Positions 802 to 19,075 of a stretch of 22,308 nt of DNA are shown here, piece after piece. Below the pieces are notes generated by a model. That model did no database searches, was not told the origin of the DNA, and was given only the letters and a program-made list of their open reading frames with translations. This DNA comes from a virus. How positions within the stretch are numbered: position 1 is the stretch's first letter; each line of letters opens with the position of its first letter. The stretch spans positions 1-22,308 of IMG/VR virus record IMGVR_UViG_3300020174_000086. One strand, written 5' to 3'. Position numbers and translations under genes: made by a program.

Positions 802-1332
802 ATGAGTCCTCAAATCATAGACAAAGTTAATGTGGAAACTTACTATGATGTATTATCCATACCATTTGATAGGGAAGTATCAGAACCACATCATATCAGT
901 TCTATCGTAGATTTTAAGACCCTAAGAGAAGATACACAAAATTTTTTATTAAAACTACCCATCGTTCAGTTCACAGGCAATTTTAAGGCAGGTGGCTTGG
1001 ATTCTAAACAACGATTGTATCTAATGAGTAGTATGAATGATATCTTCTTCGTAGACACTCTTAAAACGAATTATGCTAAGTGTGTAACCAAACTCATCAA
1101 TGTTCCCGATTTGAGTGATAAAGAGGTTATTGAAAGAACTGATGAGCATAGAAGTATTAAACGAATTAGAAAATCCGAAAGTTATGAAGTTACCTATAAT
1201 GAGGTGGATTATGTAATTGAAATTACCGAAGAGGGTAACGGAACATTTACCAGTATTATGTATGGGGATAACTTCGTAATGGATTATATGTTAGAGAAAG
1301 ATATATTAGAATATTTTTATAAAAACAAATGA
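802..1332 (+). CDS. Hypothetical protein, 176 residues
   Basis: The ORF starts 2 nt after the preceding stop and ends in TGA. No known domain is recognised. The protein is soluble and acidic to neutral, with alternating hydrophobic/charged segments typical of a small alpha/beta fold. The region SYEVTYNEVDYVIEI looks like a beta hairpin, and the C-terminus is tyrosine- and lysine-rich. There are no cysteine motifs, membrane segments or coiled coil. Tight packing with the membrane protein upstream suggests cotranscription. It is the last gene of the left block, because a promoter-like element begins at its stop codon. Confidence 0.65.
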   Translation: MSPQIIDKVNVETYYDVLSIPFDREVSEPHHISSIVDFKTLREDTQNFLLKLPIVQFTGNFKAGGLDSKQRLYLMSSMNDIFFVDTLKTNYAKCVTKLINVPDLSDKEVIERTDEHRSIKRIRKSESYEVTYNEVDYVIEITEEGNGTFTSIMYGDNFVMDYMLEKDILEYFYKNK

Positions 1333-1340
1333 TATTTATT
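1332..1340 (+). promoter_or_regulatory. Putative phage late promoter element (copy 1)
   Basis: ATATTTATT, one mismatch to the ATATTTATA found at five other gene-unit starts in this window. It overlaps the TGA stop of the upstream gene and lies 20 nt before the ATG of the 44-residue peptide gene. Its promoter function is inferred from position and repetition. Confidence 0.5.
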
Positions 1341-1360
1341 GATATTAAACTAATATTATT

Positions 1361-1495
1361 ATGGCAAAATTGATTACGGGCAACTATATCGGTAACCCTA
1401 AGAAAAAAAGACCTGGTGTTCATGCAAAAACTAAGAATTCTCGCTCTAAGAATTCCACCAATTATAAGAAAAAGTATAGAGGACAGGGTAGGTAA
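1361..1495 (+). CDS. Small, strongly basic 44-residue peptide
   Basis: ATG at 1361 opens a 44-codon frame ending in TAA at 1493-1495. The peptide is about one third Lys/Arg, with a core PKKKRPGVHAKTKNSRSKNS and a C-terminal tail YKKKYRGQGR, and it has almost no acidic residues. I recall similar Arg/Lys-rich peptides ending in YRGQG from other tailed phages of Bacteroidota, which would support a real conserved gene, but I cannot run the search. The composition suggests nucleic-acid binding, for example DNA condensation or an RNA/ribosome contact. It has its own upstream ATATTTATT element and is followed by another such element, so it may be transcribed as a separate small late message. Confidence 0.7.
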   Translation: MAKLITGNYIGNPKKKRPGVHAKTKNSRSKNSTNYKKKYRGQGR

Positions 1496-1515
1496 AATCA
1501 CTTTTTAGTTTATTG

Positions 1516-1524
1516 ATATTTATA
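1516..1524 (+). promoter_or_regulatory. Putative phage late promoter element (copy 2)
   Basis: Exact ATATTTATA within TTGATATTTATATATTG, 24 nt before the ATG at 1549, in the 53-nt gap between the basic peptide gene and the coiled-coil gene. No terminator hairpin is visible in this gap. Confidence 0.6.
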
Positions 1525-1548
1525 TATTGAACAAATATTGATAAACTT

Positions 1549-1944
1549 ATGTCAACTGATTTCGAATTATTCCCAGGCAAAAACCTAAGTGGTTTGTTTG
1601 AGGATATCTACAATAACCAAATTAATAAAAAGAAACACATTTCTGAGATTATCCACGAACTCAGAAAGAGTATCAGACATGCTGGTGATATGGCTGTATT
1701 GGGTCCTGTTATCAAAGATTTAATCGATACATCCGTTCGTAACGATGACCAATTGGTTAAGTTAGCAACAATAGCACAAAGAATTATTGCATCTAATCAA
1801 AAATCAGAAGGAGATGCTGGTTTCCTTACTGATGCTGAGAGAGAACAACTTTTGGCTGAAATAGAACAAGTCCAAGATGAAGTTCAACGAATGGATAACT
1901 TAGAAAATGAAATCGAAGAAGTAAAGCAAAAATTAGAAAACTAA
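1549..1944 (+). CDS. Small coiled-coil protein upstream of the baseplate spike gene
   Basis: The protein has 131 residues and no recognised family. The N-terminal ~90 residues are mostly helical with a hydrophobic core (DMAVLGPVIKDLIDTSVRND followed by LVKLATIAQRIIA). Residues about 94-131 are Glu/Gln/Lys-rich with heptad spacing and should form a coiled coil. Its stop at 1942-1944 directly abuts the ATG of the gp5-like spike gene, so the two are translationally linked. The context suggests a tail-assembly factor, chaperone or minor baseplate component; this is inference only. It is the first gene of the unit driven from the element at 1516. Confidence 0.65.
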   Translation: MSTDFELFPGKNLSGLFEDIYNNQINKKKHISEIIHELRKSIRHAGDMAVLGPVIKDLIDTSVRNDDQLVKLATIAQRIIASNQKSEGDAGFLTDAEREQLLAEIEQVQDEVQRMDNLENEIEEVKQKLEN

Positions 1945-3171
1945 ATGTCTTTATTCAATAGAAATAGTAATGTACAATCTAATCAGAGTGTAGGTAGCCA
2001 TTATAGAGAAAAAACCTCTATGGGGGTTGTTTACAAAATTATATTGGATGTAGATGATGATATTCTTTCTGATTTAGAAATAGTAGATGAATTAAAAAGT
2101 AAATACATTGGTGCTATACAATTTAGACAAAGTGGTACATCTAGCAAAAGAGATGAAGCTCTATCTTTAGCACTTCCCAAAGATAAAACAAACATTTCGA
2201 TACCAACAGTAAATGAAACTGTTATTATCATAAATTCTCCTGGTGGTGGATATGTTTATGAAAGAATTATTGGCTCACCTATACCAAATTTAAATACATC
2301 TACAGATGAGATAACATCCACTCAGAAAAAAGAAAAAGCGGCTAATACAAATACCGCATCTCGGTATAGTAAAGTACAATCTACTGGTATAACAAGAAGT
2401 GAGAGTTCGTTAGATGATACGGATACCTCTAAGTTGGGTAGTTATTTTGAACCTCAATTAAATATTCATAAATTAAAGTTATATGAGGGTGATTATTTAA
2501 TTGAAAGTAGATTTGGCCAATCTATTAGATTTAGCGGTTACAATAATTCTGAAAATTCGTTTTCACCAACAATAACGATAAGAAATGGTGAGAGTGGTGA
2601 ATCATTAGACCAAAATATAGGATTATCTACCGAAGAAGATGTAAATAATGATGGTAACATTATATTTTTAGGTAGTGGTCAAAGATTGTTAAATTATACA
2701 TTACCAGTTGATAATTCATACGAATCTTTTTTTAACTATCCATCGGAACTAACAGGTAATCAAATATTATTAAATTCGGATAGAATAATATTATCGGCAA
2801 AAAATGCTGAAATGATTGGTGTAGCTAAAAAGGATATTGGATTTATTACTGATGGTCAATTTTCAATTGATGCTAGTAGAGGAATCAATATCACTACTGA
2901 TGATAACATATTTGTTGATACAAAGGATAGGGATTTTAACATAGATATTGGTTCTGGTACTATTGCATTGGGTACTGATGGTGATTTAGAAGCCGCTCCA
3001 AAGGGAGAGACTTTAGTATCGTTATTGAGTGAAATGTTGGATTTAATTTCTCAACAAATATATGTAACTCCAGCAGGTCCAACTTCACCAGGTCCAACAA
3101 ATGTGGCTCAGTTTGCAGCATTAAAAACAAAATTAAACTCAATGTTGAGTAATAATGTACAATTAAAATAA
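1945..3171 (+). CDS. 5: Baseplate central spike protein, gp5-like (OB fold plus beta-helix, no lysozyme domain)
   Basis: This 408-residue protein matches the architecture of the trimeric puncturing spike under the tail tube of T4-like phages. Residues about 25-115 form a beta-rich N-terminal domain with a typical OB-fold ending (VNETVIIINSPGGGYVYERI). After a Ser/Thr-rich linker (about 118-165) comes the family-typical YEGDYLIESRFGQSIRFSG near residue 179. Short repeating beta strands (about 190-345) fit the start of a triple-stranded beta-helix. The last ~55 residues look helical. T4 gp5 is 575 residues and carries a lysozyme domain between OB fold and helix; here the intervening linker has no room for it, so peptidoglycan digestion must come from another protein. 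The stop overlaps the next start (TAATG). Confidence 0.8.
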   Translation: MSLFNRNSNVQSNQSVGSHYREKTSMGVVYKIILDVDDDILSDLEIVDELKSKYIGAIQFRQSGTSSKRDEALSLALPKDKTNISIPTVNETVIIINSPGGGYVYERIIGSPIPNLNTSTDEITSTQKKEKAANTNTASRYSKVQSTGITRSESSLDDTDTSKLGSYFEPQLNIHKLKLYEGDYLIESRFGQSIRFSGYNNSENSFSPTITIRNGESGESLDQNIGLSTEEDVNNDGNIIFLGSGQRLLNYTLPVDNSYESFFNYPSELTGNQILLNSDRIILSAKNAEMIGVAKKDIGFITDGQFSIDASRGINITTDDNIFVDTKDRDFNIDIGSGTIALGTDGDLEAAPKGETLVSLLSEMLDLISQQIYVTPAGPTSPGPTNVAQFAALKTKLNSMLSNNVQLK

Positions 3172-3422
3172 TGGCGGCTTTAGATAACATAAAAGATAAA
3201 GTAAGTTCGGTTAAAACGGTAGTTAAGGATTTATCATCTATTACTGGAAAGGATGGTGATGTTGCAAAATCAGTACCAATTGATTCACCAAAAGTACCTG
3301 TTGTGCCAAAAATTGAAAAACCAAAACTTCCAAAGTTACCTAAAATTCCTTTACCAAAGTTACCATCAGTTCCTAAATTTCAGAAAAAGAAATTACCAGA
3401 TAATCCAAAAAAGAAAAAATAA
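3171..3422 (+). CDS. Small Pro/Lys-rich protein, 83 residues
   Basis: The start codon overlaps the stop of the spike gene (TAATG), indicating translational coupling. Residues 1-35 form a helix-prone N-terminus. The C-terminal half is dominated by irregular PK/LPK units (for example KLPKLPKIPLPKLPSVPK) and ends in a lysine cluster. Such a segment would be extended and strongly positively charged. No family is recognised. Its coupling to the spike gene suggests a spike- or hub-associated accessory, or a peptide that contacts DNA or membrane, but nothing in the sequence proves this. Smooth codon use and tight packing favour a real gene. Confidence 0.65.
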   Translation: MAALDNIKDKVSSVKTVVKDLSSITGKDGDVAKSVPIDSPKVPVVPKIEKPKLPKLPKIPLPKLPSVPKFQKKKLPDNPKKKK

Positions 3423-3432
3423 CTAAATAGAG

Positions 3433-4284
3433 ATGTCTTGGTCACTTTTCAAAGCAAACATATTAAGAAAAACAAACCCCGTATCTAATCCATCATTAAA
3501 TATAAATGAGGTAGCAACGATATGGGCAGAGGAATATGATGCTTGTGTAAAAAGGGGAAAGGATTTTATAAATTTTGAATCGGTTCAGAGTGGTAATTTA
3601 GAATTGATGAAAACTTTGTTTAGAGTTGCATTATTAAAAGGATTGATAACTCCACCTGGTGTAGATTTTTCATTAGTAAATGAATTTGGTAATGGTGTAA
3701 AAGCATATTGGGCAGGAGCACAAATGAGACCATTCCCACTACCATTAATACCAGCACCTGGCTCAATACAAAATTTAGCAGTAAATTCAAATGTGGTTAT
3801 TAATGTTGGTACTTGGCCATTATACCCACCATTAAAACCGGCTAGGAAACAAGAGATGATGGTTAATATGTTTATACTTGCGGCAGTTATACATTTATTT
3901 TCAATTGGTGGTATTATACAAACAACATCATTATATCCATCCGCACCATCACCAATCCCAGCGCCTGGTGTAATTAGTTGGACGGGTTATTTGATACCAC
4001 CTGTTATCCCAATACCAAATATTAACTTTCCAAAAGAAGATGGTTCAGAACCACCTGTAATAGAACAACCAGATGGAAGTGGTGGATTTGTAACAGATAT
4101 AGGTCCTACTCAAGAATATGAAGCACCATCACAACAACAAAAAGATATATTGGGTGGGGATGCATCATTGGATAATATTATTGATACAACACTACCAAAA
4201 GATGTGGTAGACCCGATAGAATCTGAAGAAATAATCAAAGATTTCAAAAAACAATTAGAAATGGGTGGTACAAAATGTGAATAA
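3433..4284 (+). CDS. Unknown proline-rich probable tail/baseplate protein, 283 residues
   Basis: No family is recognised. The N-terminal third (about 1-95) is helical (for example EVATIWAEEYDACVKRGKDF) and ends near AYWAGAQMRPFP. The middle (about 95-200) is rich in proline and hydrophobics, with repeated PxPxPAPG-like stretches (PLPLIPAPGS, SPIPAPGVIS). One hydrophobic helix (MMVNMFILAAVIHLFSIGGI) could be a membrane segment or a buried assembly helix. The last 80 residues are acidic, polar and probably disordered. It lies between the spike and gp25 genes, where T4-like phages keep hub and wedge components, so a virion role is likely but not shown. A phage membrane protein is an alternative because of the hydrophobic helix. 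Confidence 0.6.
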   Translation: MSWSLFKANILRKTNPVSNPSLNINEVATIWAEEYDACVKRGKDFINFESVQSGNLELMKTLFRVALLKGLITPPGVDFSLVNEFGNGVKAYWAGAQMRPFPLPLIPAPGSIQNLAVNSNVVINVGTWPLYPPLKPARKQEMMVNMFILAAVIHLFSIGGIIQTTSLYPSAPSPIPAPGVISWTGYLIPPVIPIPNINFPKEDGSEPPVIEQPDGSGGFVTDIGPTQEYEAPSQQQKDILGGDASLDNIIDTTLPKDVVDPIESEEIIKDFKKQLEMGGTKCE

Positions 4285-4305
4285 AAACGAAAAAACCCAA
4301 AACAA

Positions 4306-4314
4306 ATATTTATA
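4306..4314 (+). promoter_or_regulatory. Putative phage late promoter element (copy 3)
   Basis: Exact ATATTTATA in the 53-nt gap before the gene at 4338, ending 23 nt before its ATG. It is the only such element before the long gp25-gp6 block, which then runs to 16133 without another intergenic copy. Confidence 0.6.
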
Positions 4315-4337
4315 GAGAAAGGAAAACATTTCAAAAA

Positions 4338-4868
4338 ATGGATACTGATAAATTAGTTAAAGCAATACAAATTATTGTAAAAGAAGAAATAAAGACAGTT
4401 CTTCCTACTTTGGTTAAAGAGGGAGTTAAACGAGAAATGGCTAAGTTGTTGAAAGAAAACAAGCAGCTAAGAGAAGCTATTGCACCTCAAAAACCCAAAC
4501 AACCAACTTTTATGGATGAACCTATTGTTGAAAATGTGTTACACAATCAACCAAAAAAACCATTAAGTAAAAACCCAGTGTTAAATGAAGTGTTACAACA
4601 AACACAACCATTTAACTCAAGTCAAAGACAATCAACTGGTGCTGGTGATGAATGGAGAACGATGGGATTTGATTCAACATCAACTCATACATTAGGGCAA
4701 CAAAATATAGCACAACAAATGGGTTATGGTGATATGGCACCAAAGCAAGGGTTAGGTGTTCAAACTGGAAATCCTGCATTGGATAAAGCACTCAATAGAG
4801 ATTATAGTGGTTTGATGAAGGCATTAGATAAAAAGAAAGGTCCTTGGAGACCTGGAATGGATAGGTAA
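4338..4868 (+). CDS. Hypothetical protein upstream of gp25, helical N-terminus
   Basis: The 176-residue product has a charged amphipathic helix at residues about 3-48 (LVKAIQIIVKEEIKTVLPTL and onward), plausibly a coiled coil. A long polar Gln/Asn/Pro-rich region with little hydrophobic core follows, then a conserved-looking basic C-terminus KKKGPWRPGMDR. No catalytic motif or membrane segment is visible. The shape (helix, disordered linker, short terminal motif) fits an assembly adaptor or scaffold-like protein, but the family is not recognised. It is the first gene of the long unit containing gp25 and gp6, 6 nt ahead of gp25, so a baseplate-assembly role is the most economical guess. Confidence 0.6.
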   Translation: MDTDKLVKAIQIIVKEEIKTVLPTLVKEGVKREMAKLLKENKQLREAIAPQKPKQPTFMDEPIVENVLHNQPKKPLSKNPVLNEVLQQTQPFNSSQRQSTGAGDEWRTMGFDSTSTHTLGQQNIAQQMGYGDMAPKQGLGVQTGNPALDKALNRDYSGLMKALDKKKGPWRPGMDR

Positions 4869-4874
4869 TAAACT

Positions 4875-5303
4875 ATGGCTGTTGAAATTGGTAGAAAGAT
4901 TGTTAAAGATACACCACAATATGCAAATTATGCTATTGGGATTACTTTACCATTAACTTTTGGTGAGAATACATTTGAACAATCTTATTTAACCAAAGAC
5001 CAAGTTAAATCAAATATCAAAAATTTACTTCTTACTAAAAGAGGTGAAAGAGTTTTACAACCTGAGTTTGGTAGCGGATTGCAGGAATTACTTTTCGAAC
5101 CAAATGTAGATGATTTGGAAGGTAGGATTGAGGATACAATAAATGAAAGTTTACAACAATGGCTACCATATGTTACAGCAGAAGAAATTGATATTGAATC
5201 AACTGATGAGTTAAGAGATAATAATAGATTAAATGTTTCAATTAAATTTAGAATAGGAAATGATATTAATTTAGAAACCTTAACATTTACAGTTCAGGGA
5301 TAA
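4875..5303 (+). CDS. 25: Baseplate wedge protein gp25-like
   Basis: The 142-residue length is close to T4 gp25 (132), the wedge subunit that contacts the first sheath ring and helps trigger sheath contraction. The sequence shows the family signature: an N-terminal stretch ending in ITLPLTFGEN, a helix with KDQVKSNIKNLLLTKRGERV, then QPEFGSGLQELLFEP. A helix (EGRIEDTINESLQQWLPYV) and C-terminal strands ending in LETLTFTVQG follow. The gene is 6 nt after its upstream neighbour and 6 nt before the gp6-like gene, matching the common 25-6 pairing in T4-like phages. The assignment is secure at family level. Confidence 0.9.
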   Translation: MAVEIGRKIVKDTPQYANYAIGITLPLTFGENTFEQSYLTKDQVKSNIKNLLLTKRGERVLQPEFGSGLQELLFEPNVDDLEGRIEDTINESLQQWLPYVTAEEIDIESTDELRDNNRLNVSIKFRIGNDINLETLTFTVQG

Positions 5304-5309
5304 TAAGAT

Positions 5310-7343
5310 ATGGCAATAACAAAAACAACAAAGAATTTTAAGAATAGGGGTAAGGATATTAAATACCTCAACAAAGATTTTGCCGAATTTAGAGGTAATC
5401 TAATTGAGTTTGCAAAAACTTATTTCCCAGCTACTTATTCTGATTTTAACGAATCATCTCCAGGTATGATGTTTATCGAAATGGCATCGTATATTGGTGA
5501 TTCGCTTTCATATTATATTGATGATACCTTAAAGGAATCATTAATGGTTCATGCAGATGATATTGAAAATGTAATATCACTTTCACAATATTTGGGATAC
5601 AAGCCAAAAGTAACATCACCCGCAGTAACCACACTTTCGGTTTATCAATTAGTACCATCAACCGGAGATGGTGTAAACAATACCTATGATGAAACATATC
5701 TTTTGAAATTAAAAGAAGGTATGGTTGTTGAATCTACAAATGGGGTAAGATTTATTACTCAAGATGTAGTAGATTTTTCAGATGATACGGATAGAGAAAT
5801 CACTATTTATCAAACTGATTCTGTTAGTGGAGAAACTTCTTTTTATTTGGTAAAGAAAAAGGTACAAGCTATATCGGCTGAAATAAAAGAACAAGAGTTT
5901 ACTTTTGGTTCATATGAGGCATTTAGAACTATTGATTTATCCGATACTAACATTATCGATATCTACGATGTAAGAGATTCAAATGGAAACAAATGGTATG
6001 AAGTTCCTTATTTAGGACAGGAGTTAATATTTGTTGATTACCCAAATACAGCGGCTAATGACCCAGACTTATATCAGTTTAAATCGACAGTACCATATAT
6101 ATTAAACACACTTAAAACATCTCGTAGGTTTGTTAAAAAAGTAAATGGTGATAGTACCACAACAATTCAGTTTGGTGTTGGAGACCCATCTGTTAGTGAA
6201 GAAACTATTATACCTTCGGTTAAAAATGTTGGGTTGGGGTTACCTAATTCTATTTCTAAATTAAATGAATCATTTGACCCTACGAACTTTTTAAAAACAA
6301 ATACATATGGCTCTTCCCCATCAAACACAACTATAACTGTAAAATATTTGGTTGGGGGTGGAATTTCATCAAATGTAAAGAAGGGAACTCTTACTCAAAT
6401 TAGGGGTGTTGAATATGAAGAAGATACTACATTATTAACACCACAAGAATTAGCAATATACAATTCAACCAAAAATTCATTAGCAGTAGATAATGAAGTT
6501 CCTGCAACTGGTGGTAAAGGTGGTGATACGATTGAAGAAATAAAACAGAACGCTTTAGCAAACTTTGGCTCTCAGAATAGAGCAGTAACCGCTAAAGATT
6601 ATGAAGTAAGAGCGTTATCGATGCCAACTAAGTTTGGTTCGGTTGCAAAAGCATACGCTACGGCAGATGGTACATTGGATAACAACTCACCATCATCAAT
6701 TCTTTCTTCACCAAAAGCTTTACAAGAGTTTACTGATTTAGTAATGAGTTTTGTTGAAAAGCCGGATGATGAAGAGCCGGATAGAAGAAGTGTTCAACAA
6801 GAAATACAAAAATATTTAATTGGTAAAACTTCAAACGAAAACGAAAAAAACAACCCATTTGCAATTAACTTATATTTGTTGGGATATAATTCGGATGGAA
6901 AACTAAGTTCTTTAAATAGTGCAATAAAAGAAAACTTAAAAACATACCTTTCCGAATACAAAATTTTAACCGATGGTGTAAATATAAATGATGGATTTAT
7001 TATTAATATTGGTATTGAATTCGAAGTAATTACATTTAAAAATTATAATAAATCGGAAGTTGTTGCAAATTGTATTCAAGAATTAAAAGATTATTTTAAC
7101 ATTAATAATTGGACTTTTAATAATACTATCAACATTTCAGAATTAGAATTGATTGTAGCAAATGTAGAAGGTGTAAGTTCAGTTCCAAAATTAAAAATTG
7201 TAAATAAATGTGGTGAACCTTATTCACCAAACTCATATAATATAGAAGCGGCGATTAAAGATAAGATTTTATATCCATCTTTAGACCCATCGGTTTTTGA
7301 AGTTAAATTTCCAGATGCGGATATTAAAGGGAGAGCAAGATAA
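5310..7343 (+). CDS. 6: Baseplate wedge protein gp6-like (baseplate J superfamily)
   Basis: At 677 residues it is close to T4 gp6 (660), which dimerises between wedges to form the continuous inner ring of the baseplate. The N-terminus has the typical sequence DIKYLNKDFAEFRGNLIEFA, then TYFPATYSDFNESSPGMMFI and EMASYIGDSLSYYIDDTLKE. This is the hallmark helical region of gp6 and J-like proteins. The central part contains the J-like segment around GGKGGDTIEEIKQNALANFG followed by NRAVTAKDYEVRAL (residues about 402-435). The C-terminal ~170 residues form an alpha/beta region (NINDGFIINIGIEFEVITF). The stop overlaps the next start (TAATG), so the following protein is translationally coupled. Confidence 0.92.
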   Translation: MAITKTTKNFKNRGKDIKYLNKDFAEFRGNLIEFAKTYFPATYSDFNESSPGMMFIEMASYIGDSLSYYIDDTLKESLMVHADDIENVISLSQYLGYKPKVTSPAVTTLSVYQLVPSTGDGVNNTYDETYLLKLKEGMVVESTNGVRFITQDVVDFSDDTDREITIYQTDSVSGETSFYLVKKKVQAISAEIKEQEFTFGSYEAFRTIDLSDTNIIDIYDVRDSNGNKWYEVPYLGQELIFVDYPNTAANDPDLYQFKSTVPYILNTLKTSRRFVKKVNGDSTTTIQFGVGDPSVSEETIIPSVKNVGLGLPNSISKLNESFDPTNFLKTNTYGSSPSNTTITVKYLVGGGISSNVKKGTLTQIRGVEYEEDTTLLTPQELAIYNSTKNSLAVDNEVPATGGKGGDTIEEIKQNALANFGSQNRAVTAKDYEVRALSMPTKFGSVAKAYATADGTLDNNSPSSILSSPKALQEFTDLVMSFVEKPDDEEPDRRSVQQEIQKYLIGKTSNENEKNNPFAINLYLLGYNSDGKLSSLNSAIKENLKTYLSEYKILTDGVNINDGFIINIGIEFEVITFKNYNKSEVVANCIQELKDYFNINNWTFNNTINISELELIVANVEGVSSVPKLKIVNKCGEPYSPNSYNIEAAIKDKILYPSLDPSVFEVKFPDADIKGRAR

Positions 7344-8425
7344 TGGCATACTATTTCCTCACAGCATCAAAAGATGCATCGGTTTACTTACAACAACCTG
7401 ACCAAAATTGTGGTTTAGATGAAGTATTAGAGGTAAGTAAGGTTTACTATGGTAACATCAAAGATGTATCCAGAGCACTCCTTAAATTTGATGTGAGTAA
7501 CTTCTCATCATCACTATCAAATGGAAGTGTGGGATTCGAAGAAGCAACTCTTATAATGAGAGAAACTGAATCCGAAGAACTACCATTGGATTTTTCAATT
7601 AACATTCATCCAATATCCGAAAGTTGGGAGATGGGTAATGGTACTCGTTTTGATGATATATCTACCTCTGGTGTAACATGGAATTATAGAGAAGGTGATT
7701 CTTCTTTAAGATGGGTAAGTGTAGTTGATAATGGATTGCCTGTATTTGCTGGAACATCCACTGGTTCATTTGCTGGTAGAGGAGGTGTTTGGTATTCTGA
7801 TTTAAGTAGTTTTCAAAATTTTTCATATCAATCTAAAGATATTAATGCAAATATTACTACTATCGTTCAAAGCTGGTTAAGTGGTTCAATTAACAACGAA
7901 GGATTAATTGTAAAACACACAAACGCCGTTGAAGAAGATACAAACGATTATGGTATTCTAAAATTCTTTAGTAAAGAAACCAATACAATCCATCAGCCAA
8001 AAGTTAGAATTGGTTGGAATGATGTTTCTTTTACAACTGGTTCATTAACCGAACTAACATCTGAAGAAATTAAAGTTGGAATCAAAAACTTTAAAAAAGA
8101 ATATAGAGTAAACACAACTCCAAAGTTGAGAGTAGTGGGTAGGGATTTATATCCAGTTAAAACATTCTCAACAACCGCACAATATGGTATTAGTAAATTC
8201 TTACCAACAACATCATATTACCAAATTAGAGATTATCATTCAGATGATATTATTGTTCCATTCTCAAATTACACAAAGTTAAGTTGCGATTCAGCTGGTA
8301 ATTACTTCAATCTTAATTTATCAAATTGGGAAGTGGATAGAGTATATAAAATAGAATTTAAAGTTACCATTAATGGAGTTGATAATTTCTTTGATGAAGA
8401 TTATACATTTAGCGTAATATCGTAA
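7343..8425 (+). CDS. DNRLRE-like beta-sandwich tail/baseplate protein
   Basis: The 360-residue protein starts inside the gp6 stop codon (TAATG). Its N-terminal ~230 residues resemble DNRLRE/CBM-like beta-sandwich domains. There is an opening DASVYLQQ, a strand SRALLKFDVS, and the closing pattern WLSGSINNEGLIVKHTN plus LKFFSKET near residues 176-215. Such domains are known from secreted and cell-surface proteins, often with glycan-related roles. The C-terminal ~130 residues are a separate beta-rich region. Its place directly after gp6 suggests a structural component on the baseplate periphery, perhaps a receptor-binding or glycan-contacting protein in the position where T4 has wedge genes 7-8. 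Family resemblance is seen by eye; the function is inferred. Confidence 0.6.
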   Translation: MAYYFLTASKDASVYLQQPDQNCGLDEVLEVSKVYYGNIKDVSRALLKFDVSNFSSSLSNGSVGFEEATLIMRETESEELPLDFSINIHPISESWEMGNGTRFDDISTSGVTWNYREGDSSLRWVSVVDNGLPVFAGTSTGSFAGRGGVWYSDLSSFQNFSYQSKDINANITTIVQSWLSGSINNEGLIVKHTNAVEEDTNDYGILKFFSKETNTIHQPKVRIGWNDVSFTTGSLTELTSEEIKVGIKNFKKEYRVNTTPKLRVVGRDLYPVKTFSTTAQYGISKFLPTTSYYQIRDYHSDDIIVPFSNYTKLSCDSAGNYFNLNLSNWEVDRVYKIEFKVTINGVDNFFDEDYTFSVIS

Positions 8426-8426
8426 G

Positions 8427-9479
8427 ATGAAAAACAGCGGATTAAAAAATGAACAAAAAGTTCAACAAATTTTAGTAAGTGGTTCTACTGCATTAGTTCA
8501 GAGAAACTCCGCTGGTGTACGTCTATTTAGAGAATCTGATTTAGGTGATGGTATTATAAGTGGACAACTAATTAGACCAAAGTACAATACTAATGAACTA
8601 AAAAAATCAATAGATACTGAAATATTTGAATTAATTCCACAAGAAGCTCCTGATTTACCAGCGATGGTTCTTAAAACAATTTATGATGATGCTTTGGAAA
8701 GAATTGATGATTTAACTTTAGAGGTTACTAATTTAAATACAGAAGTAGGTAACTTAAATTCAAAAATTTCTGAATTAGAAATTGTAAGTGAAAGTTTGAA
8801 AATAGAAGCGGATAATCAAATATTAAAAGCTAATGTTTCAGAACAACAAGCCATTACCGCAAATGAGCAAGTAGCAACTACTACTATTGATTTAACAAAC
8901 GCTATTCAAAACTCAATTAATGAGGCAGTTCAAAGAGTATCTTTATTTGCAAGAAATGAATCTTTGGAACAAGAAGTTGCTAATCTAAGAGAACAATTAT
9001 TTGGATTGGCAGCTCAAACGGCAGAAGGTGCTCAAAGTGGTGGTAACAATTTATTTACGGTAAAAGTAATTGGTGGAGGTTCAGACCCGGATTATGATAT
9101 TAAAGCAACATCATCTCATTGGGATAGAAAAGGCGAAGATACATTAAATGTACAATTAGAAGTTAACAATGTTACTGCTGCGAATAAAATAACAAATATT
9201 CAGTTTAATTTCACCAATGGGCCTAAATGGCTTAAGGTAAGACAGGGATATTCTACAACGATAGAACCACAAGTATCTGCTATATATGGGTTAAAATTTG
9301 ATAATACTGTTATTGGTACAATGGACCCAAAAAGAGTTAATGCATTTATTGGAAAAAAGTGGTCTAGTGAAGCAAAGGACCATACTAATACCCAATTACA
9401 AGTTAAAGCTACATTTGCAGATGGAAGTACTGATACTGTAATTCTGAGAACAAAGTTAAGAAAAAACAGAAAAGGATAA
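8427..9479 (+). CDS. Coiled-coil plus beta-domain probable tail/baseplate protein
   Basis: The 350-residue protein has three visible parts. The N-terminal region (about 1-85) contains short beta/turn segments (LVSGSTALVQRNSAGVRLF). A long helical heptad region (about 88-200) includes LTLEVTNLNTEVGNLNSKIS and later NESLEQEVANLREQLFG. A C-terminal beta domain starts after the glycine linker (about 205-350) and ends in a basic KLRKNRKG tail. A central coiled coil with a terminal beta domain suits a trimeric fibre or connector on the baseplate. It begins 1 nt after the previous stop and ends 1 nt before the next start. No named family is recognised. Confidence 0.65.
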   Translation: MKNSGLKNEQKVQQILVSGSTALVQRNSAGVRLFRESDLGDGIISGQLIRPKYNTNELKKSIDTEIFELIPQEAPDLPAMVLKTIYDDALERIDDLTLEVTNLNTEVGNLNSKISELEIVSESLKIEADNQILKANVSEQQAITANEQVATTTIDLTNAIQNSINEAVQRVSLFARNESLEQEVANLREQLFGLAAQTAEGAQSGGNNLFTVKVIGGGSDPDYDIKATSSHWDRKGEDTLNVQLEVNNVTAANKITNIQFNFTNGPKWLKVRQGYSTTIEPQVSAIYGLKFDNTVIGTMDPKRVNAFIGKKWSSEAKDHTNTQLQVKATFADGSTDTVILRTKLRKNRKG

Positions 9480-9480
9480 A

Positions 9481-10641: not shown

Positions 10642-10642
10642 A

Positions 10643-12013: not shown

Positions 12014-12014
12014 G

Positions 12015-15000
12015 ATGGCACAAGAAAAATTACCTTTTGGAATGGGAGGAGCTGGTGGTAACAATAACACTGGTAATACCAATGTGCCTCAAAATAATCC
12101 ATCAACAATTAATCAACCTGTAAACCCAATTAATTTTCCAACAAAACCAACAAACAATAAGGGATTAAAATCAAACCTACCAAATGTATCATTATCAGAT
12201 AGACCATCTCCAAAAAAGTTAATCGAAAAATTAGATGAAGGAATTGCCGATGATGAAACAATTGGTGTATCAAATCGTGCTATTGATTTAGTAATTAATG
12301 TAATTGATGAAACATATGTAAATGTTCCTGATATTGTAAAGATACAATATCCAAAAGAAGTCAGAGGTGCTGATTTCGTTGGGTATGATGTAGATTTTAA
12401 TATTCAATTTGATGTAGTAAATGGTGATAGTAGTACTTTTGTTGAAGTTGGTATTGGTAGAGTAAAATCTGCATTTAGAACTAGGGATAAAAGTATAACC
12501 TTAAATGTAAAGGAAGTATTAATTAATTACCTTGATATGGAGGGTGAATTTAACCCTGCAAGAAAAGGAGCTCCTGAGGGCGTTGATGTTGGCGATAAAA
12601 TTAGAATCCCAATATCATTAACTCCAATTACTCAAAATTTAAGAAAAGAACAAATAAAAGGAGAAACAGAAACATTTACAGTTCTTTTTGATAAAGGTGA
12701 TTTAACCATTCCAAGAAATGTTGCAATCAATAGATTAGCTGAAGGATTTATATCTCAATTCACAAATTGTGAATTTGATGATTCTAAATATCTTACTCAT
12801 TTACTACATTTAGGTAAAGGTGATAATAAAGTAATTACAACTTGGGTAGGTAGTGAAAATTCTTTAATTCTTAAATTATACGAACCACTACCAACTTCTG
12901 TTAGAACTAATGATAAAGTTTGGATTACAAAAATACAAGCTAATCCAATTATAGAAACCATTACTTTGGTTGGTGATGGTATAGATTATTGTCCACCACT
13001 AAAGGGACCTAATTTTACTTTAGAATCTGATAATGGTATTGGATACCAAGTATATGATGAATTATTGGCAAGTGGTTCTACAACAAACACATCATTAGTT
13101 CAGAAATATATTTCTAAAAAAGGAATTGATACTGAAAAATTAAATATAGAATATGTAACTGGTTCCGAATATTATTTTGATAATTTTATACACTTTGGTT
13201 CAGCTGAAGAAAGAATAAAAAACTTTTGGTATAAGATTGAACTATTGGAATCATATCAATCAAAATATAATTCACTAACTACTTCAACTGCAGAATTGGG
13301 ATATGTTCTTGCCGAAGGTAGTACATATGATGGGTATGTGATTATAACTGAAGATGATAGTTCTTTAGGGTTAGATTCTACAACGACAACGGCGGCATCT
13401 GTTATTGAAGCAAATAAACAATTGGATAATATTAATAATCTAATTGGTACATTTGATGGGTTTGAAAAATGGTTGTACACATCAACTGATGATTTAGCGT
13501 ATCCAAAGAGTGGTAATACAATTGTGGCATCAACCAACTCTGAAGCAATAGCTTGGTACAATAGTAGTGTTAACGATAGCGCAACCTTTGATAGAAACAA
13601 CATTGATTATCTTAACAACAATCTTCCAGAGTTTATTAAGGAAGATTATCAGAATGAAGATTTTATGTTGTTTATGGATATGTTGGGACATCACTTTGAT
13701 GTTATTTGGGTTTATATAAATTCATTAAATAAGTTAAAAAATCCACAACACAAATCCGATAAAGGATTCTCTAATGAATTGGTTTATCATATGCTAGAAT
13801 CTTTGGGTTGGGAAGGTAAGAAAGCTTACGATTCTCAATTCCTATGGGAATATGCTTTAGGACAATATAAAGATGGTACACAAAAATACCAACAATCACT
13901 TAAATCAGCAAATGAAGAAGTTTGGAGAAGAATCCTTAACAATCTACCTTATTTACTAAAACACAAAGGTACTGCTCGTTCGTTGAAAGCAGTAATGGCT
14001 TGTTATGGTGTTCCACAATCACTTCTTACAATTATGGAGTTTGGTGGACCAACTGACCCAACCGATGGTGGTACTCAACCATTTACATTTGAGGATAGAA
14101 CAGCTGCTTTAGTATTTAGTGGTTCTCAATATGTAAGTACTGAATGGAAAAATTCACCATTACCATTGAGTATTGAAATGAATGTTAAATTCAACGAAGC
14201 TCAGAATCATAGTTTAGTAAAGGGTATATCGGGTGCTAGTACTTATTTTGAGTTAGATGCTATACAAACTACTGGTTCATTTGGTAAGATTGTATTCTCT
14301 ATGTATTCTGGTAGTGGATTGACTCCTTCTGGAGACCCACAAACCATTGAAACTACACAAAGAAAACTATTTGATGGTGAATATAAAACAATTGCTATTA
14401 CAAGAGCAGATGATACTGTTAGTTCTGGTTCGTATTCATTGTATCTAAAACAATCATTAAATAATAGATTAGTTATTAATGAATCTGTAACAAAACTTAT
14501 TAGTAGTTCATTTTGGGATGATTCTACTGAATTACAAATAGGTAGCGCATCTTATACAACAATTGATGAGTTCAGATTATGGAGTACTCCATTAGAAGAT
14601 GGTGTAATAACAACTCACACAAAACTTCCAGACGCAACAAATGGTAATAACTATACTGCATCTGCATCTGAATTGATATTAAGACATGATTTTGAATATC
14701 CAAAAAATAGACACACAGATGGAGATACTGAAATTATAAATGTTTCGGTTAGTAATCTATATAATGTAACATCATCAATAGCTGTTGGATTCACAAGTCA
14801 ATCTGTATATCCATATAATTACGAAACATATGAAAGAAGTGTAACCGCTCAGGTACCTTCTTTAGGATTCAATCAAGCCGATAAAATTAGATTTGAATCA
14901 CAAACTTTAGTTGGTGATTTATCTCATAAAGTTAGAGCAACTCAAAAATCATTGGATAGAGCACCAATCGATTCATCTCGATTAGGATTATTCTTCTCAC

Positions 15001-16133
15001 CAATCAAAGAGTTGAATATGGATATTATTAAATCTTTTGGTAATTTTAATATTGATAATTATATCGGAGCACCTGCTGATGAATATAAAGATGAATACAC
15101 CGAACTAAAAAATCTAAGAGAATTTTATTTCCAAAGATTAAATAGAGATATTTACGAATACATAAGATTAATCAGATACATAGATAAATCACTATTTGAT
15201 GTATTAGAAGATTTAGTTCCTGCTAGAGCAAAAGTTTCTAAAGGTTTATTAATTGAACCACATTATTTAGAAAGAAGTAAAACTAAATGGAAAAAACCAA
15301 CATCTGAGAAAAGAGATTATGAAACTAATCTAAATGTTGAAGAAGATGTAATTCTAATCGGTGATAATAATCAGTTCGAAGGAAAGTTGGATGTAGATGA
15401 TACAACTACCCTATCATATCAATATGATAATTATACAGCTAATTTAGATGCAGAAAGTGATATTAATTTGGTATCAACCAATCCACAATATGATTCATCT
15501 ATTGATGTAAATGAAGATACCGAATTAGTGGGAACATACCCAACATATGTATTTGAAATAAATGTACCTAAAGGAGATAAGTTAGATGCAACAGCTGCTT
15601 CCTTTGGATTTGAACAAATTGGAATGGAACCTGATTCTTTAGCAAATGCTGGATTTGGATTATATGCATCACTACCAGCAACTGGTTCGGTAACTAAATT
15701 AGATATTTTTGGAAATCGTTTCGTTACGAGAGAACAAATATATTTAATAAAAGAACAATATATCGAAAAAATAAAAGTACAAACTAAAGGCTGGCCTGCA
15801 ACTACTACTAATGAACAAGTTGAATATGAATTGCAGGATGTAACTAAATTTAGATATAGAGTATCAAGAGTAGGGGTTGGACAATCTATACCAACAATAG
15901 GTAATGATGTAGTAGAGGTTACTCCATTAAATGGTTATTTTCCAACACACTATCGTTACAAAAACAATTTATCAGAAGGGTTGCAAAAATCATTCTTTAA
16001 GGGTTCACAACAAACCCAAGATACAACCCCAGATGGGTTACCACCTGTTGAAACATTTACTACTAATCCAAATATTCTTAGAGTTGCGGATACTGGTAGA
16101 GGTTCTGGTGAACCAATCTTAGAGGTAGATTAA
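12015..16133 (+). CDS. Large baseplate-wedge-like tail protein with inserted LamG-like domain
   Basis: At 1372 residues this is the largest protein here and lies where T4-like phages encode the big wedge protein gp7 (1032 in T4). Residues 1-60 are Asn/Pro/Gly-rich. Residues about 85-400 are beta-rich with FIHFGSAEERIKNFWYKIEL near 390. Residues about 545-670 are helical, with LMLF-type core, then NNLPYLLKHKGTARSLKAVM and ACYGVP. That segment recalls the tail-protein-I/wedge fold (a domain arranging KGT-x-RS near its end). A LamG/concanavalin-like sandwich follows (about 693-865: TAALVFSGSQYVSTEW to TIDEFRLWSTPLED). The helical wedge part then resumes to VPARAKVSKGLLIEPHYLER at about 1070-1090. 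Five 19-residue repeats (1103-1197) and a C-terminal region follow. It probably forms the wedge arm and bears a glycan- or receptor-contacting domain; homology to gp7 is inferred from context. Confidence 0.75.
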   Translation: MAQEKLPFGMGGAGGNNNTGNTNVPQNNPSTINQPVNPINFPTKPTNNKGLKSNLPNVSLSDRPSPKKLIEKLDEGIADDETIGVSNRAIDLVINVIDETYVNVPDIVKIQYPKEVRGADFVGYDVDFNIQFDVVNGDSSTFVEVGIGRVKSAFRTRDKSITLNVKEVLINYLDMEGEFNPARKGAPEGVDVGDKIRIPISLTPITQNLRKEQIKGETETFTVLFDKGDLTIPRNVAINRLAEGFISQFTNCEFDDSKYLTHLLHLGKGDNKVITTWVGSENSLILKLYEPLPTSVRTNDKVWITKIQANPIIETITLVGDGIDYCPPLKGPNFTLESDNGIGYQVYDELLASGSTTNTSLVQKYISKKGIDTEKLNIEYVTGSEYYFDNFIHFGSAEERIKNFWYKIELLESYQSKYNSLTTSTAELGYVLAEGSTYDGYVIITEDDSSLGLDSTTTTAASVIEANKQLDNINNLIGTFDGFEKWLYTSTDDLAYPKSGNTIVASTNSEAIAWYNSSVNDSATFDRNNIDYLNNNLPEFIKEDYQNEDFMLFMDMLGHHFDVIWVYINSLNKLKNPQHKSDKGFSNELVYHMLESLGWEGKKAYDSQFLWEYALGQYKDGTQKYQQSLKSANEEVWRRILNNLPYLLKHKGTARSLKAVMACYGVPQSLLTIMEFGGPTDPTDGGTQPFTFEDRTAALVFSGSQYVSTEWKNSPLPLSIEMNVKFNEAQNHSLVKGISGASTYFELDAIQTTGSFGKIVFSMYSGSGLTPSGDPQTIETTQRKLFDGEYKTIAITRADDTVSSGSYSLYLKQSLNNRLVINESVTKLISSSFWDDSTELQIGSASYTTIDEFRLWSTPLEDGVITTHTKLPDATNGNNYTASASELILRHDFEYPKNRHTDGDTEIINVSVSNLYNVTSSIAVGFTSQSVYPYNYETYERSVTAQVPSLGFNQADKIRFESQTLVGDLSHKVRATQKSLDRAPIDSSRLGLFFSPIKELNMDIIKSFGNFNIDNYIGAPADEYKDEYTELKNLREFYFQRLNRDIYEYIRLIRYIDKSLFDVLEDLVPARAKVSKGLLIEPHYLERSKTKWKKPTSEKRDYETNLNVEEDVILIGDNNQFEGKLDVDDTTTLSYQYDNYTANLDAESDINLVSTNPQYDSSIDVNEDTELVGTYPTYVFEINVPKGDKLDATAASFGFEQIGMEPDSLANAGFGLYASLPATGSVTKLDIFGNRFVTREQIYLIKEQYIEKIKVQTKGWPATTTNEQVEYELQDVTKFRYRVSRVGVGQSIPTIGNDVVEVTPLNGYFPTHYRYKNNLSEGLQKSFFKGSQQTQDTTPDGLPPVETFTTNPNILRVADTGRGSGEPILEVD
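15321..15605 (+). repeat. Five tandem 57-bp units encoding 19-residue repeats
   Basis: Within the large wedge-like protein, residues 1103-1197 split into five consecutive 19-residue units starting at 15321, 15378, 15435, 15492 and 15549. The pattern is xxxLDVxxDxxLxxxxxxY, for example EGKLDVDDTTTLSYQYDNY and DSSIDVNEDTELVGTYPTY. The first four keep Leu/Ile-(Asp/Asn), an acidic cluster, a mid leucine and a terminal aromatic; the fifth (VFEINVPKGDKLDATAASF) is degenerate. The units probably form successive beta strands of a shaft or sandwich. Confidence 0.75.
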
Positions 16134-16151
16134 TTAAATTTGAAAAAAGTT

Positions 16152-16160
16152 ATATTTATA
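16152..16160 (+). promoter_or_regulatory. Putative phage late promoter element (copy 4)
   Basis: Exact ATATTTATA in the 55-nt gap between the large wedge-like gene and the structural gene at 16189, ending 28 nt before the ATG. This gene is likely to need its own strong late promoter. Confidence 0.6.
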
Positions 16161-16188
16161 GTATATCACAAAAGGGTAAAATAAAAAT

Positions 16189-16818
16189 ATGGGATATTTA
16201 GATAACACATCAATTACAGTCGATGCCATCCTTACTAAAAAGGGTAGACAAAAATTGGCATCCGGTCAAGACCTTGGAATCACCAAATTCGCATTGGGTG
16301 ATGATGAGATTGACTACACATTGTATGAGCCAGCGCACCCAAAGGGTTCGGCGTATTATGACTCAGCAATTAAGGCGATTCCAATTCTGGAAGCTAGTCC
16401 TGACGAAACGCAAGTATTAAGATATAAGCTAGTTACATTACCATCAGGTACAACTCAAATTCCAATCGTATCATTGGGTATCGCTTCGATTCCAGTGTAT
16501 CAAGATGAAGGGCAGGTGGCACTTTCACCTACAACTTCACCATTGGGAAATACGAATGCAGGATATACTGTTGTATTAGCAGACCAGAGAGCTGGTACAT
16601 TAGCAGTAACGCAAGGAGCAACAGCAGCTGGTTCAATTCCAGTGTTCTTAGGAGAAGAAGTAACTACTACCGCACAAGTTGTGAGTGGTTTAGGATTTAC
16701 ATTCTCACCTAATCCTTCGTTAACTACTAACATTACAACTACTTTGACTGTGTATGGTAACGAAACTGGAGGTTCAGTAACTATTCCAGTGGTGGTAACT
16801 TATAGAAGTAACGTATAA
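16189..16818 (+). CDS. Probable virion structural protein, 209 residues
   Basis: The N-terminus YLDNTSITVDAILTKKGRQK, followed by ITKFALGDDEIDYTLYEP and then the KAIPILEASPDETQVLRYKL region, is a recognisable conserved block. I recall it from structural proteins of marine and environmental T4-like phages, annotated only as structural or hypothetical. Residues about 85-209 are Thr/Val/Gly-rich with beta-sandwich character. There is no signal peptide or catalytic motif. Its third positions seem richer in C and G than those of the preceding tail genes, which together with its own upstream element suggests high expression. It heads a two-gene unit ending at the terminator at 18067. Its place in the particle is not known to me. 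Confidence 0.7.
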   Translation: MGYLDNTSITVDAILTKKGRQKLASGQDLGITKFALGDDEIDYTLYEPAHPKGSAYYDSAIKAIPILEASPDETQVLRYKLVTLPSGTTQIPIVSLGIASIPVYQDEGQVALSPTTSPLGNTNAGYTVVLADQRAGTLAVTQGATAAGSIPVFLGEEVTTTAQVVSGLGFTFSPNPSLTTNITTTLTVYGNETGGSVTIPVVVTYRSNV

Positions 16819-16831
16819 AAGGAAATAAACG

Positions 16832-18037
16832 ATGGCAATAATTCAAGACCCAAATATAACCGCTCAATTACAGGCATTGGCGGAATCAGGAACAATCGAA
16901 AGTAATGATGTAATAGCCCTTTTGAATTCAGCATTACCAGGCGGACAGCAAATCTCCCTTACAACAGGTGTATCATCTGGTGTATATAAGAGATTTGGTG
17001 AGTTCGATAAAGTAAATGCAAAGGTAGAAGTAGTAACTACTGGTTTATGGACTGGAGATACTGGTTCATTAACTAATGTACATACTTCATCAACTCAAGT
17101 TGCAGCTAATAGTGGTGATTACTATTACAATGCATATAACGCTAACCCAGCAACCGATTCTTCTGCGGAAGTTCAATTCGCTGTAGCATATGGGCATGTA
17201 AATGGAAGTGGTTCGGTATCATTACAAAATTCAGATGATTCACTACTTGCTTCAAAAGCAACTTACGCTCAGTATAAATCGGTTCTTTTAGACCCAACTG
17301 ATACTAAATTCTCATTTGAAAATGGTGCAGGAACTGCTGTTGATTCAAATGATATTTATGTAATCAATGTAAATAGAGCTAGATATAGGGAGAAAATGGA
17401 TGCAGGAAACTGGTCATTGAATCTTTCTGGTTCTAATGGTTTATTTACATTTATTGATGATAGTGGTAAGAAATTCGGTGATACATTAGGTAAAGCTGGT
17501 AGAGTATTTAAAGTAGTAAGTGGTTCACTTAACTTAGGTACGGAAAATGCAGCAACTGTTAACACTACAACTTCTTCTGGTGATGTGGGATTTGGATTAT
17601 TTTATCCTGATAGAGGAATAGTAGTTCTTTCACCAGCAGCATTAGAAGATACTGTTGGTAATGTTGGAGTAAATGGTTCGGAAGTAACTTTAGCTGGTTC
17701 ATTATCTGTGGCAGCTGAGCAAGAAAATCACAAAAGATTATTTAACTCTATTAAATTGGGTGGTGATTTCCAAGCTCGTAGAACTGAAAATGTATCTACA
17801 AGACACTTCTTCGTAAGAGCAACCAATAGAGAATTTAACTATTCAAACAACCCAACCTATGTAAATACAAATGGTACTTTCGCTGAAACTTCATTCGAAA
17901 CTGACCCAAGAACTTACATTACAACAGTTGGACTTTTAAACGATTCAAACGAATTAATCGCAGTAGCTAAAACATCTCAACCAATTGAAAAATCATTTGA
18001 TAAAGAAGTATTAATTAAAGTTAAACTTTCATTCTAA
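16832..18037 (+). CDS. Probable virion structural protein, 401 residues, sharing a C-terminal module with the next gene
   Basis: ATG at 16832 is preceded by AAAAGGAAAT at a ribosome-binding distance. The protein is Ser/Thr/Asn/Gly-rich and mostly beta-structured, as in exposed virion proteins. Residues about 250-401 share a module with the 312-residue protein at 18124: LFYPDRGIVVL, then REFNYSNNPTY, then YITTVGLLNDSNELIAVAK and SQPI. The C-terminal ITT(V/I)GL...VAVAK...QPI pattern is, as far as I recall, common in structural proteins of environmental T4-like phages. The gene is the last before a strong terminator, cotranscribed with the 209-residue protein. It could be a tail, head-decoration or fibre component; the sequence does not decide. 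Confidence 0.7.
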   Translation: MAIIQDPNITAQLQALAESGTIESNDVIALLNSALPGGQQISLTTGVSSGVYKRFGEFDKVNAKVEVVTTGLWTGDTGSLTNVHTSSTQVAANSGDYYYNAYNANPATDSSAEVQFAVAYGHVNGSGSVSLQNSDDSLLASKATYAQYKSVLLDPTDTKFSFENGAGTAVDSNDIYVINVNRARYREKMDAGNWSLNLSGSNGLFTFIDDSGKKFGDTLGKAGRVFKVVSGSLNLGTENAATVNTTTSSGDVGFGLFYPDRGIVVLSPAALEDTVGNVGVNGSEVTLAGSLSVAAEQENHKRLFNSIKLGGDFQARRTENVSTRHFFVRATNREFNYSNNPTYVNTNGTFAETSFETDPRTYITTVGLLNDSNELIAVAKTSQPIEKSFDKEVLIKVKLSF

Positions 18038-18066
18038 TTAAATTGATTAAATTATAAACTTAGAAG

Positions 18067-18096
18067 AACCCCACCAAAAGTGGGGTTTTTCGTTTT
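18067..18096 (+). terminator. Rho-independent terminator
   Basis: A perfect 8-bp stem AACCCCAC/GTGGGGTT (18067-18074 with 18080-18087) encloses the 5-nt loop CAAAA and runs into TTTCGTTTT. It sits 29 nt after the stop of the 401-residue protein gene and just before the next promoter-like element. It is the clearest terminator in the window. Confidence 0.9.
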
Positions 18097-18099
18097 ATG

Positions 18100-18108
18100 A
18101 TATTTATA
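18100..18108 (+). promoter_or_regulatory. Putative phage late promoter element (copy 5)
   Basis: Exact ATATTTATA within TGATATTTATAGA, directly after the terminator and 15 nt before the ATG at 18124. A terminator followed immediately by this element is the best positional argument that the motif restarts transcription. Confidence 0.65.
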
Positions 18109-18123
18109 GAAAAGTATTTTTAG

Positions 18124-19062
18124 ATGTTAAAAGAGATTCCAAAATCGGATATTGTAGTCAGACCTTTCAAAGTTTACAAAGAGTGGGCTTTGGATGAGAC
18201 TGATATTACCCCATTGTATGGTACTCTGCAAACTGATTTATATGATGCTAATACTGATGATACAAACTCTAATGGTATTTCTAAAAGAACTTTGTATGAT
18301 TCCATTAAAGCACAATTCTATTTAAATCCAGCAACAGCATCTATTGTAACTGAAGTTGGTAGGAGAGAATCATATGCATCTACAAATGAAAGAGTAATTG
18401 GTGATACTATTGGTGTAATATCGATTCCACAAGAATATTATGGTGAAGGTGTTAAAGTTGGTTCACTAACATTAGAATATGGTTCAATAACAGCAACCGA
18501 TGATGGTAATTCTAACCTAATTGATTCAGCATCAAATATTAAGGGAAATTTATTTTACGATAGGGGGTTAATTGTTTTAACCGATAATGTAACCGATGGT
18601 TCTACCTTAACTAACTTTGATATTTCATATCGTTCAACAATGACAATCTATGAAAATGAAATATTCTTATCGGTAAACGAAAACGAATTTAACGTATCTC
18701 AAAATCCTACTGCAGTATATGAGGTTGGTGCAACTAAACGAAATGTAACTGTAACAAAACCAAAAAGTAGACTTATAGATGGTGAAACTGCTGTTAAAAG
18801 CTTTTATCAACCTGGAGCAAAATATGTTAGAAATTCAAATTATCCATACATTTCAAATGTGGATGGGGTATCAAAGGGTAGTTTTGATGATTATATCGTA
18901 AGTGGTTCTACTGATGAAACTGGTTCTTATTTAGCACCATTTATTACAACAATTGGTTTATATGATAATGAGTTGAATATGGTTGCTGTGGCTAAATTAC
19001 CACAACCAATTAAATCGCTACCAGATTATCCAGTAAACTTCATTATTCGTTTCGATACATAA
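18124..19062 (+). CDS. Probable virion structural protein, 312 residues, paralogous module to upstream gene
   Basis: The N-terminal ~110 residues are specific to this protein (SDIVVRPFKVYKEWALDETD and onward). From about residue 140 it parallels the 401-residue protein. GNLFYDRGLIVLTDNV matches LFYPDRGIVVL, NEFNVSQNPTAVY matches REFNYSNNPTY, and FITTIGLYDNELNMVAVAKL plus QPI matches the same C-terminal block. The two are therefore likely paralogues or share an exchangeable module. The inserted stretch between the second and third blocks is longer here. The gene has its own promoter-like element after the terminator and stands apart from the upstream unit, so its dosage may be set separately. 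A virion role is inferred from family resemblance and position. Confidence 0.7.
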   Translation: MLKEIPKSDIVVRPFKVYKEWALDETDITPLYGTLQTDLYDANTDDTNSNGISKRTLYDSIKAQFYLNPATASIVTEVGRRESYASTNERVIGDTIGVISIPQEYYGEGVKVGSLTLEYGSITATDDGNSNLIDSASNIKGNLFYDRGLIVLTDNVTDGSTLTNFDISYRSTMTIYENEIFLSVNENEFNVSQNPTAVYEVGATKRNVTVTKPKSRLIDGETAVKSFYQPGAKYVRNSNYPYISNVDGVSKGSFDDYIVSGSTDETGSYLAPFITTIGLYDNELNMVAVAKLPQPIKSLPDYPVNFIIRFDT

Positions 19063-19066
19063 TGTT

Positions 19067-19075
19067 ATATTTATA
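19067..19075 (+). promoter_or_regulatory. Putative phage late promoter element (copy 6)
   Basis: Exact ATATTTATA within TTATATTTATAATATA, 20 nt before the ATG at 19096. The sequence AAAGGAAAG lies between element and start and could act as a ribosome-binding site. Confidence 0.6.

Follow-up and report, generated by a model that had tools for sequence, protein, structure and literature searches.

A conserved AT-rich box before structural genes as the probable late promoter of a phage group, with a candidate phage sigma factor

A 22,308-base viral fragment from IMG/VR (the whole stretch analyzed here, called the window) carries all its genes on the plus strand, and the same short AT-rich word stands before one structural gene after another. 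What is this word for, and what reads it? The original prediction, made from the sequence alone, took it for a phage-specific late promoter. Our work strongly supports the late-promoter reading, on the grounds of enrichment in gaps, absence before early genes and the presence of a candidate sigma factor. We propose that ATATTTAT(A/T) is the late promoter of a phage group and that a phage sigma factor reads it with the host RNA polymerase; in the absence of transcript or binding data, we give this proposal a probability of roughly 0.7.

A scan of the window finds ATATTTATA exactly at 1516, 4306, 16152, 18100 and 19067, all on the plus strand, and no copy was found on the minus strand. Together with the variant ATATTTATT at 1332 there are six copies; none is in a gene, and every one of the six structural-side gaps longer than 25 nt holds one. 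They stand at the positions and 15 to 28 nt before an ATG, as had been predicted for nearly every such gap.

1332..1340, plus strand: putative late promoter box, variant ATATTTATT, 20 nt before a 44-aa ORF at 1361
1516..1524, plus strand: putative late promoter box ATATTTATA, 24 nt before a 131-aa ORF at 1549; exact in 59 of 62 distinct orthologous upstream regions
4306..4314, plus strand: putative late promoter box ATATTTATA, 23 nt before an ORF at 4338; exact in 78 of 85 orthologous upstream regions, ATATTTATT in the remaining 7
16152..16160, plus strand: putative late promoter box ATATTTATA, 28 nt before a 209-aa ORF at 16189; exact in 22 and ATATTTATT in 34 of 57 orthologous upstream regions
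18063..18091, plus strand: intrinsic terminator between two structural units, 12-pair stem and T tail
18100..18108, plus strand: putative late promoter box ATATTTATA, 15 nt before an ORF at 18124; exact in 46 of 49 orthologous upstream regions
19067..19075, plus strand: putative late promoter box ATATTTATA, 20 nt before a 68-aa ORF at 19096; exact in 32 of 35 orthologous upstream regions
19710..19741, plus strand: putative host-type (early) promoter, TTTG (19710) and TATATTTG (19734-19741), before an ORF at 19777; box in 11 of 34 orthologous upstream regions
19981..20012, plus strand: putative host-type (early) promoter, TTTG (19981) and TATATTTG (20005-20012), before the primase gene at 20028; box in 26 of 36 orthologous upstream regions

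The ORF at 4338 sits ahead of gp25-like and gp6-like baseplate genes. The terminator at 18063-18091 ends 8 nt ahead of the box at 18100, which bears out the claim that one copy directly follows a strong terminator; this is not a general rule, since only 5 of 79 late-box sites have a terminator before them in a strict exact-stem test. The 44-aa ORF (1361-1495) is very basic and weakly matches phrog_516, whose function is unknown. A 401-aa ORF at 16832 was considered as the sheath and dropped, the real sheath being a 769-aa protein elsewhere. Between the late and early blocks, 19309-19722 is a 137-aa ORF with GIY-YIG-like residues (FIYMIEHIPTGKYYIGKK), noted by reading the sequence only. Scans of the window against Rfam and for tRNAs gave no match.

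Matches with one mismatch are not in excess in the window as a whole (35 seen, 38.9 expected); hence, the signal is positional. ATATTTATW occupies six window gaps, and the most reached by any of 20,000 Markov-simulated gap sets, matched in composition to the window gaps, was four. Because the window is a fragment, we read two long relatives over their whole genomes: G004 (252.6 kb), whose positions 49478-50804 match the genes at the left end of the window at 97-100% protein identity, and G007 (270.9 kb), which has an exact box before a 46-aa ORF adjoining the ortholog of the gene at 1549. Forward copies of ATATTTATA number 33 in G004 (32 intergenic) and 41 in G007 (38 intergenic), with 2 and 6 copies, respectively, in reverse. 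Counted in gaps only, the 9-mer occurs 28 times in G004 against 2.3 expected from an order-3 model and 35 times in G007 against 2.6, so that the genome-wide enrichment on which the original prediction had staked itself is there. Unsupervised k-mer counting gave ATATTTATA and TTTCGTATATTTG as the leading strand-biased gap words (G004/G007). Strong strand bias was also observed in ten further contigs, and the controls T4 (9 copies on each strand) and RM378 (5 and 4) had none. A mirror-sequence control is meaningless for ATATTTATA, because the word reads the same backwards.

Among orthologs of five late genes, 285 of 288 upstream regions lie within one mismatch of the box, and the core ATATTTAT is nearly invariant across the 285 sites. 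Position 9 is A in 239, T in 45 and G in 1. T being common, the copy at 1332, which does differ in spelling and had been counted as a mismatch, is a normal variant. G being rare, the match at 17352 (ATATTTATG), cited earlier as an example of chance occurrence, does lie inside a gene but is not a typical box. Several hundred upstream regions of seven control genes without a gap had no exact box. No -35 signal accompanies the box, the information outside it reaching at most 0.34 bit in 70 aligned late sites. Scans of viral contigs gave at least 600 matches, and a search of the open literature found no published report of the box.

The replication side of the window uses another signal. As had been claimed, the gaps before the small ORF (19777) and the primase gene (20028) have no late box, and neither do the orthologous upstream regions, with an exact copy in 0 of 36 for primase and 0 of 34 for the small ORF; equal frequency before early genes, which would have spoken against a late promoter, is not observed. 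Early sites have a strong TTTG 19-20 nt upstream of TCGTATATTTG, the known -33/-7 promoter of Bacteroidota, and the two-box class of the 19710 site is also present in G004 and G007. Both elements of Bacteroidota sigma-A promoters (-33 TTTG and -7 TAnnTTTG) occur at early sites and neither at late sites, in agreement with the claim that the late box differs from TAnnTTTG. In G004, the genes that directly follow a late box include those for tail sheath, tail tube, head-tail adaptor and baseplate hub/lysozyme; a host-type box precedes those for helicase, endonuclease, SSB, exonuclease, primase and sliding clamp. Among ortholog pairs of G004 and G007, 15 are late in both, 10 are early in both and none has swapped class. 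The labels "early" and "late" are inferred from gene function, without timing data. The SSB gene of G004 belongs to both classes, with tandem host-type and late boxes (171023 and 171076). Such a double-box SSB resembles T4 gene 32.

Where would transcription start? At 417 distinct box sites, an ORF begins with ATG 10-35 nt downstream in 339, with a peak at 20-24 nt, and 18 sites form a second class with the ATG 3-4 nt after the box; no ATG lies at 5 or 7-10 nt among these 417 sites. The start codons are as called and are unconfirmed. The simplest reading of this spacing is a start 4-5 nt after the box, and the peak at 3-4 nt predicts that some mRNAs are leaderless. The start 6-12 nt after the box that had been expected is thus replaced by a closer one, itself a prediction without transcript data.

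The original prediction had also called for a sigma gene elsewhere in the genome, and a candidate was found beside the structural block. The gene has 239 codons (46919-47638 in G004) and lies about 1.8 kb to the left of the point in G004 that matches the left edge of the window, so that the window itself lacks it. It was first picked up by a weak Sigma70_r2 match in G004 (12.7 bits against a cut-off of 24); there is no Pfam match above the cut-off, and neither phmmer/BLAST searches of G004 and G007 with gp55 and the annotated RM378 sigma nor PHROG and PDB sequence searches with the candidate gave anything convincing. The protein is 84% identical between G004 and G007, and its family occurs in many viral contigs, adjoining the structural block. 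A family profile found such a sigma-fold protein in every tested record of at least 160 kb except T4; the homologs in immuto (immuto35A_152), Mel-JY01 and RM378 (Rm378p020) are annotated as hypothetical only, and the one in LR756508 is unannotated. Its upstream neighbor in G004 is a 90-aa gene whose promoter is a host-type box at 46.6 kb. A strict host-type box is found upstream of the sigma gene at 15 of 78 loci, and a late box within 650 nt upstream at none of the 78. We consider the 239-aa protein a good candidate for the reader of the box, an inference by association.

An AlphaFold2 model of the candidate with 35 relatives has a pLDDT of 75 and a pTM of 0.43. In structural alignments, residues 9-116 have T4 gp55 (7d7c_F) as the best chain (Z 10.7, 103 residues, 2.5 A), a lead that is tied, as other sigma region 2 domains lie within Z 1. 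Nearly all matches are sigma factors, and the BFVD matches are largely phage sigmas. The N-terminal part is hence predicted to have the fold of sigma region 2. A profile comparison with gp55 is co-linear (7-103 with 8-107; P 0.0098), with an HHalign probability of only 4%; the gp55 family HMM phrog_234 has no match in eight relatives, the T4 control being positive, and a weak one in immuto (E 0.008). In T4, gp55 places A(-12) and A(-8) in deep pockets via Y97 and T99, with Y97 stacking on A(-12) (PMC7892883). Y97 aligns with Tyr91 of the candidate, invariant in 89 sequences (50 close and 37 immuto-clade members, LR756508 and Mel-JY01), T99 aligns with Ser/Thr93 in the close clade only, and H95, of the -9 pocket, aligns with Phe/Tyr in the candidate family. 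The box had been described as a reverse complement-like form of the T4 promoter, which is unneeded: TATTTATA read forward matches T4 TATAAATA at 6 of 8 positions, with A(-12) and A(-8) kept and -10 and -9 different. The conserved contact residues would fit these two retained adenines, as far as the alignment can be trusted. The candidate looks like a distant relative of gp55, weakly supported by sequence.

Residues 130-239 are modeled confidently as a four-helix domain with an HTH-like end (pLDDT 82.5, pTM 0.73). SigR region 4 scored Z 4.7 in a fold search that also brought up unrelated HTH folds, and as these searches returned no clear fold or family, we do not claim a sigma-4 domain. T4 DNA polymerase, gp55 and gp33 have similar C-termini, through which they bind the clamp (PMC2988020, PMC7892883). 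G004 encodes a DNA polymerase, clamp and clamp loader (phrog_223, phrog_168 and phrog_225), and G007 and G022 also have the sliding clamp. A C-terminal FFx[FY] is found only in DNA polymerase and the candidate sigma among the 235 (G004) and 268 (G007) forward genes, the tails of polymerase and sigma being EKFFSF and DEFFSY in G004 and EKFFAF and MDFFAY in G007. The match is limited to these two genomes: in other relatives the polymerase has FFxF and the sigma tail is DFW or dissimilar, and the match fails in the immuto clade too. Activation of the sigma by the sliding clamp is therefore plausible but not shown, and remains inferred. More tentatively still, and with the odds against it, the protein could be a one-piece late sigma, in which region 2 is gp55-like, an HTH-like domain takes the place of sigma-4/gp33 and the tail binds the clamp. 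A fused late-transcription sigma (gp55-gp33) was noted as not found by Geiduschek and Kassavetis (PMC2988020).

We hypothesize that early and replication genes would be transcribed first, by host RNA polymerase with host sigma-A, and that one early unit would make the phage sigma (239 aa in G004). This sigma would direct host RNA polymerase to the late boxes, each a single -10-like element without a -35 element, and transcription would begin some 4-5 nt past the box, in some cases at the A of the start codon itself. As in T4, the sigma would probably be bound to the phage sliding clamp through its C-terminal tail, in which case late transcription would follow replication.

The main remaining rival is a retuned host factor: host sigma-A, or another host sigma, would read the late promoter with the help of a phage activator or an altered RNA polymerase, and no dedicated phage sigma would exist. 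We regard this as unlikely without dismissing it, since early TATATTTG and late ATATTTATA have ATATTT in common, so that one sigma might be retuned, and the 239-aa protein is tied to the box by association only. The late class, however, has neither the -33 TTTG nor the G of the -7 box and ends in a different tail, and a conserved sigma-fold protein is found by the family profile in all tested records of at least 160 kb but T4.

The other explanations have far less room. That the box is a promoter of a phage-encoded RNA polymerase is very improbable. An invariant single box without a -35 element also fits single-subunit or phiKZ-type polymerases, but no beta' domain was found in eight records with a search positive in 14 of 14 control genomes; a search for a T7-type polymerase found nothing either and is weak, because no control was positive. 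A role in translation or RNA processing, in place of transcription, has just as slim a chance. The element does always lie near a start codon, but its spacing to the ATG is broad, 11-30 nt, and two-peaked, one copy directly follows a terminator, and the box marks only one functional class of genes. Chance in AT-rich DNA has a negligible claim, despite gaps with more than 80% A+T and one-mismatch matches as frequent as in shuffles: it is already refuted by the counts, at least 12-fold over the order-3 model and strand-biased, by the conservation in 285 of 288 orthologous upstream regions and by the lack of strand bias in T4 and RM378.

A late promoter read by a phage sigma would give a very abundant, almost unannotated phage group a two-step transcription program, with boxes and a candidate regulator. 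With the two boxes, early and late genes of these phages can be told apart by sequence alone. Should the sigma be clamp-tethered, and likewise should the one-piece reading be true, late transcription would be coupled to replication outside the classical T4 family; tethering, or a one-piece sigma with its HTH-like domain, would also bear on the open question of why no fused late sigma has been seen (PMC2988020).

The system is present in a cultured Flavobacterium phage, immuto (MW353176.1), and is hence testable; there, the box precedes immuto35A_163, the homolog of the 209-aa ORF at 16189. In immuto gaps, a longer word resembling TATATTTAGGTATCAATAATTAAAAC is strongly enriched as well; it may be another promoter class or a repeat. 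In Mel-JY01 (PP395634.1) the late box is found in 19 upstream regions against 4.1 expected. This phage, recorded from Microcystis elabens, also has the Bacteroidota-type box GTATATTTG (7 copies, 0.27 expected); given both boxes, it may in reality infect a Bacteroidota of that culture. LR756508 has a sigma homolog, yet no box enrichment in 240 kb. RM378 (NC_004735.1) has the homolog Rm378p020 (17032-17826) and an enriched word that differs from ATATTTAT: TATTTAA, 6-17 nt before many called starts, which overlaps the late box in TATTTA and is possibly an RM378 late promoter. A second sigma-like gene of RM378, annotated Rm378p144 (128329-128928), is unrelated to Rm378p020.

The T4 late system consists of the promoter TATAAATA, sigma gp55, co-activator gp33 and clamp gp45. 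Like it, the system described here has an AT box of 8-9 bp roughly one helical turn ahead of the start, without a -35 element and before virion genes, a sigma region 2 fold (predicted here), a phage clamp and clamp loader and, in two genomes, an acidic/aromatic sigma tail resembling that of DNA polymerase. Unlike T4, the box has T at -10/-9 (A in T4) and the predicted start is closer; the sigma has about 50 more residues, its C-terminal domain being predicted as four-helix and HTH-like, and is missed by the gp55 family HMM; the hosts are inferred to be Bacteroidota, and nearly all genes lie on one strand. The T4 box TATAAATA is not enriched in immuto or Mel-JY01. The sigma of phiEco32-type phages redirects host RNA polymerase, the same idea as proposed here, homology not being shown in our work. 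These phages have their own sigma factor (PMC8948821). Compared with Bacteroidota sigma-A promoters, the late box is without the -33 element and TTTG, and promoters of that same type precede the early genes of the phages studied here.
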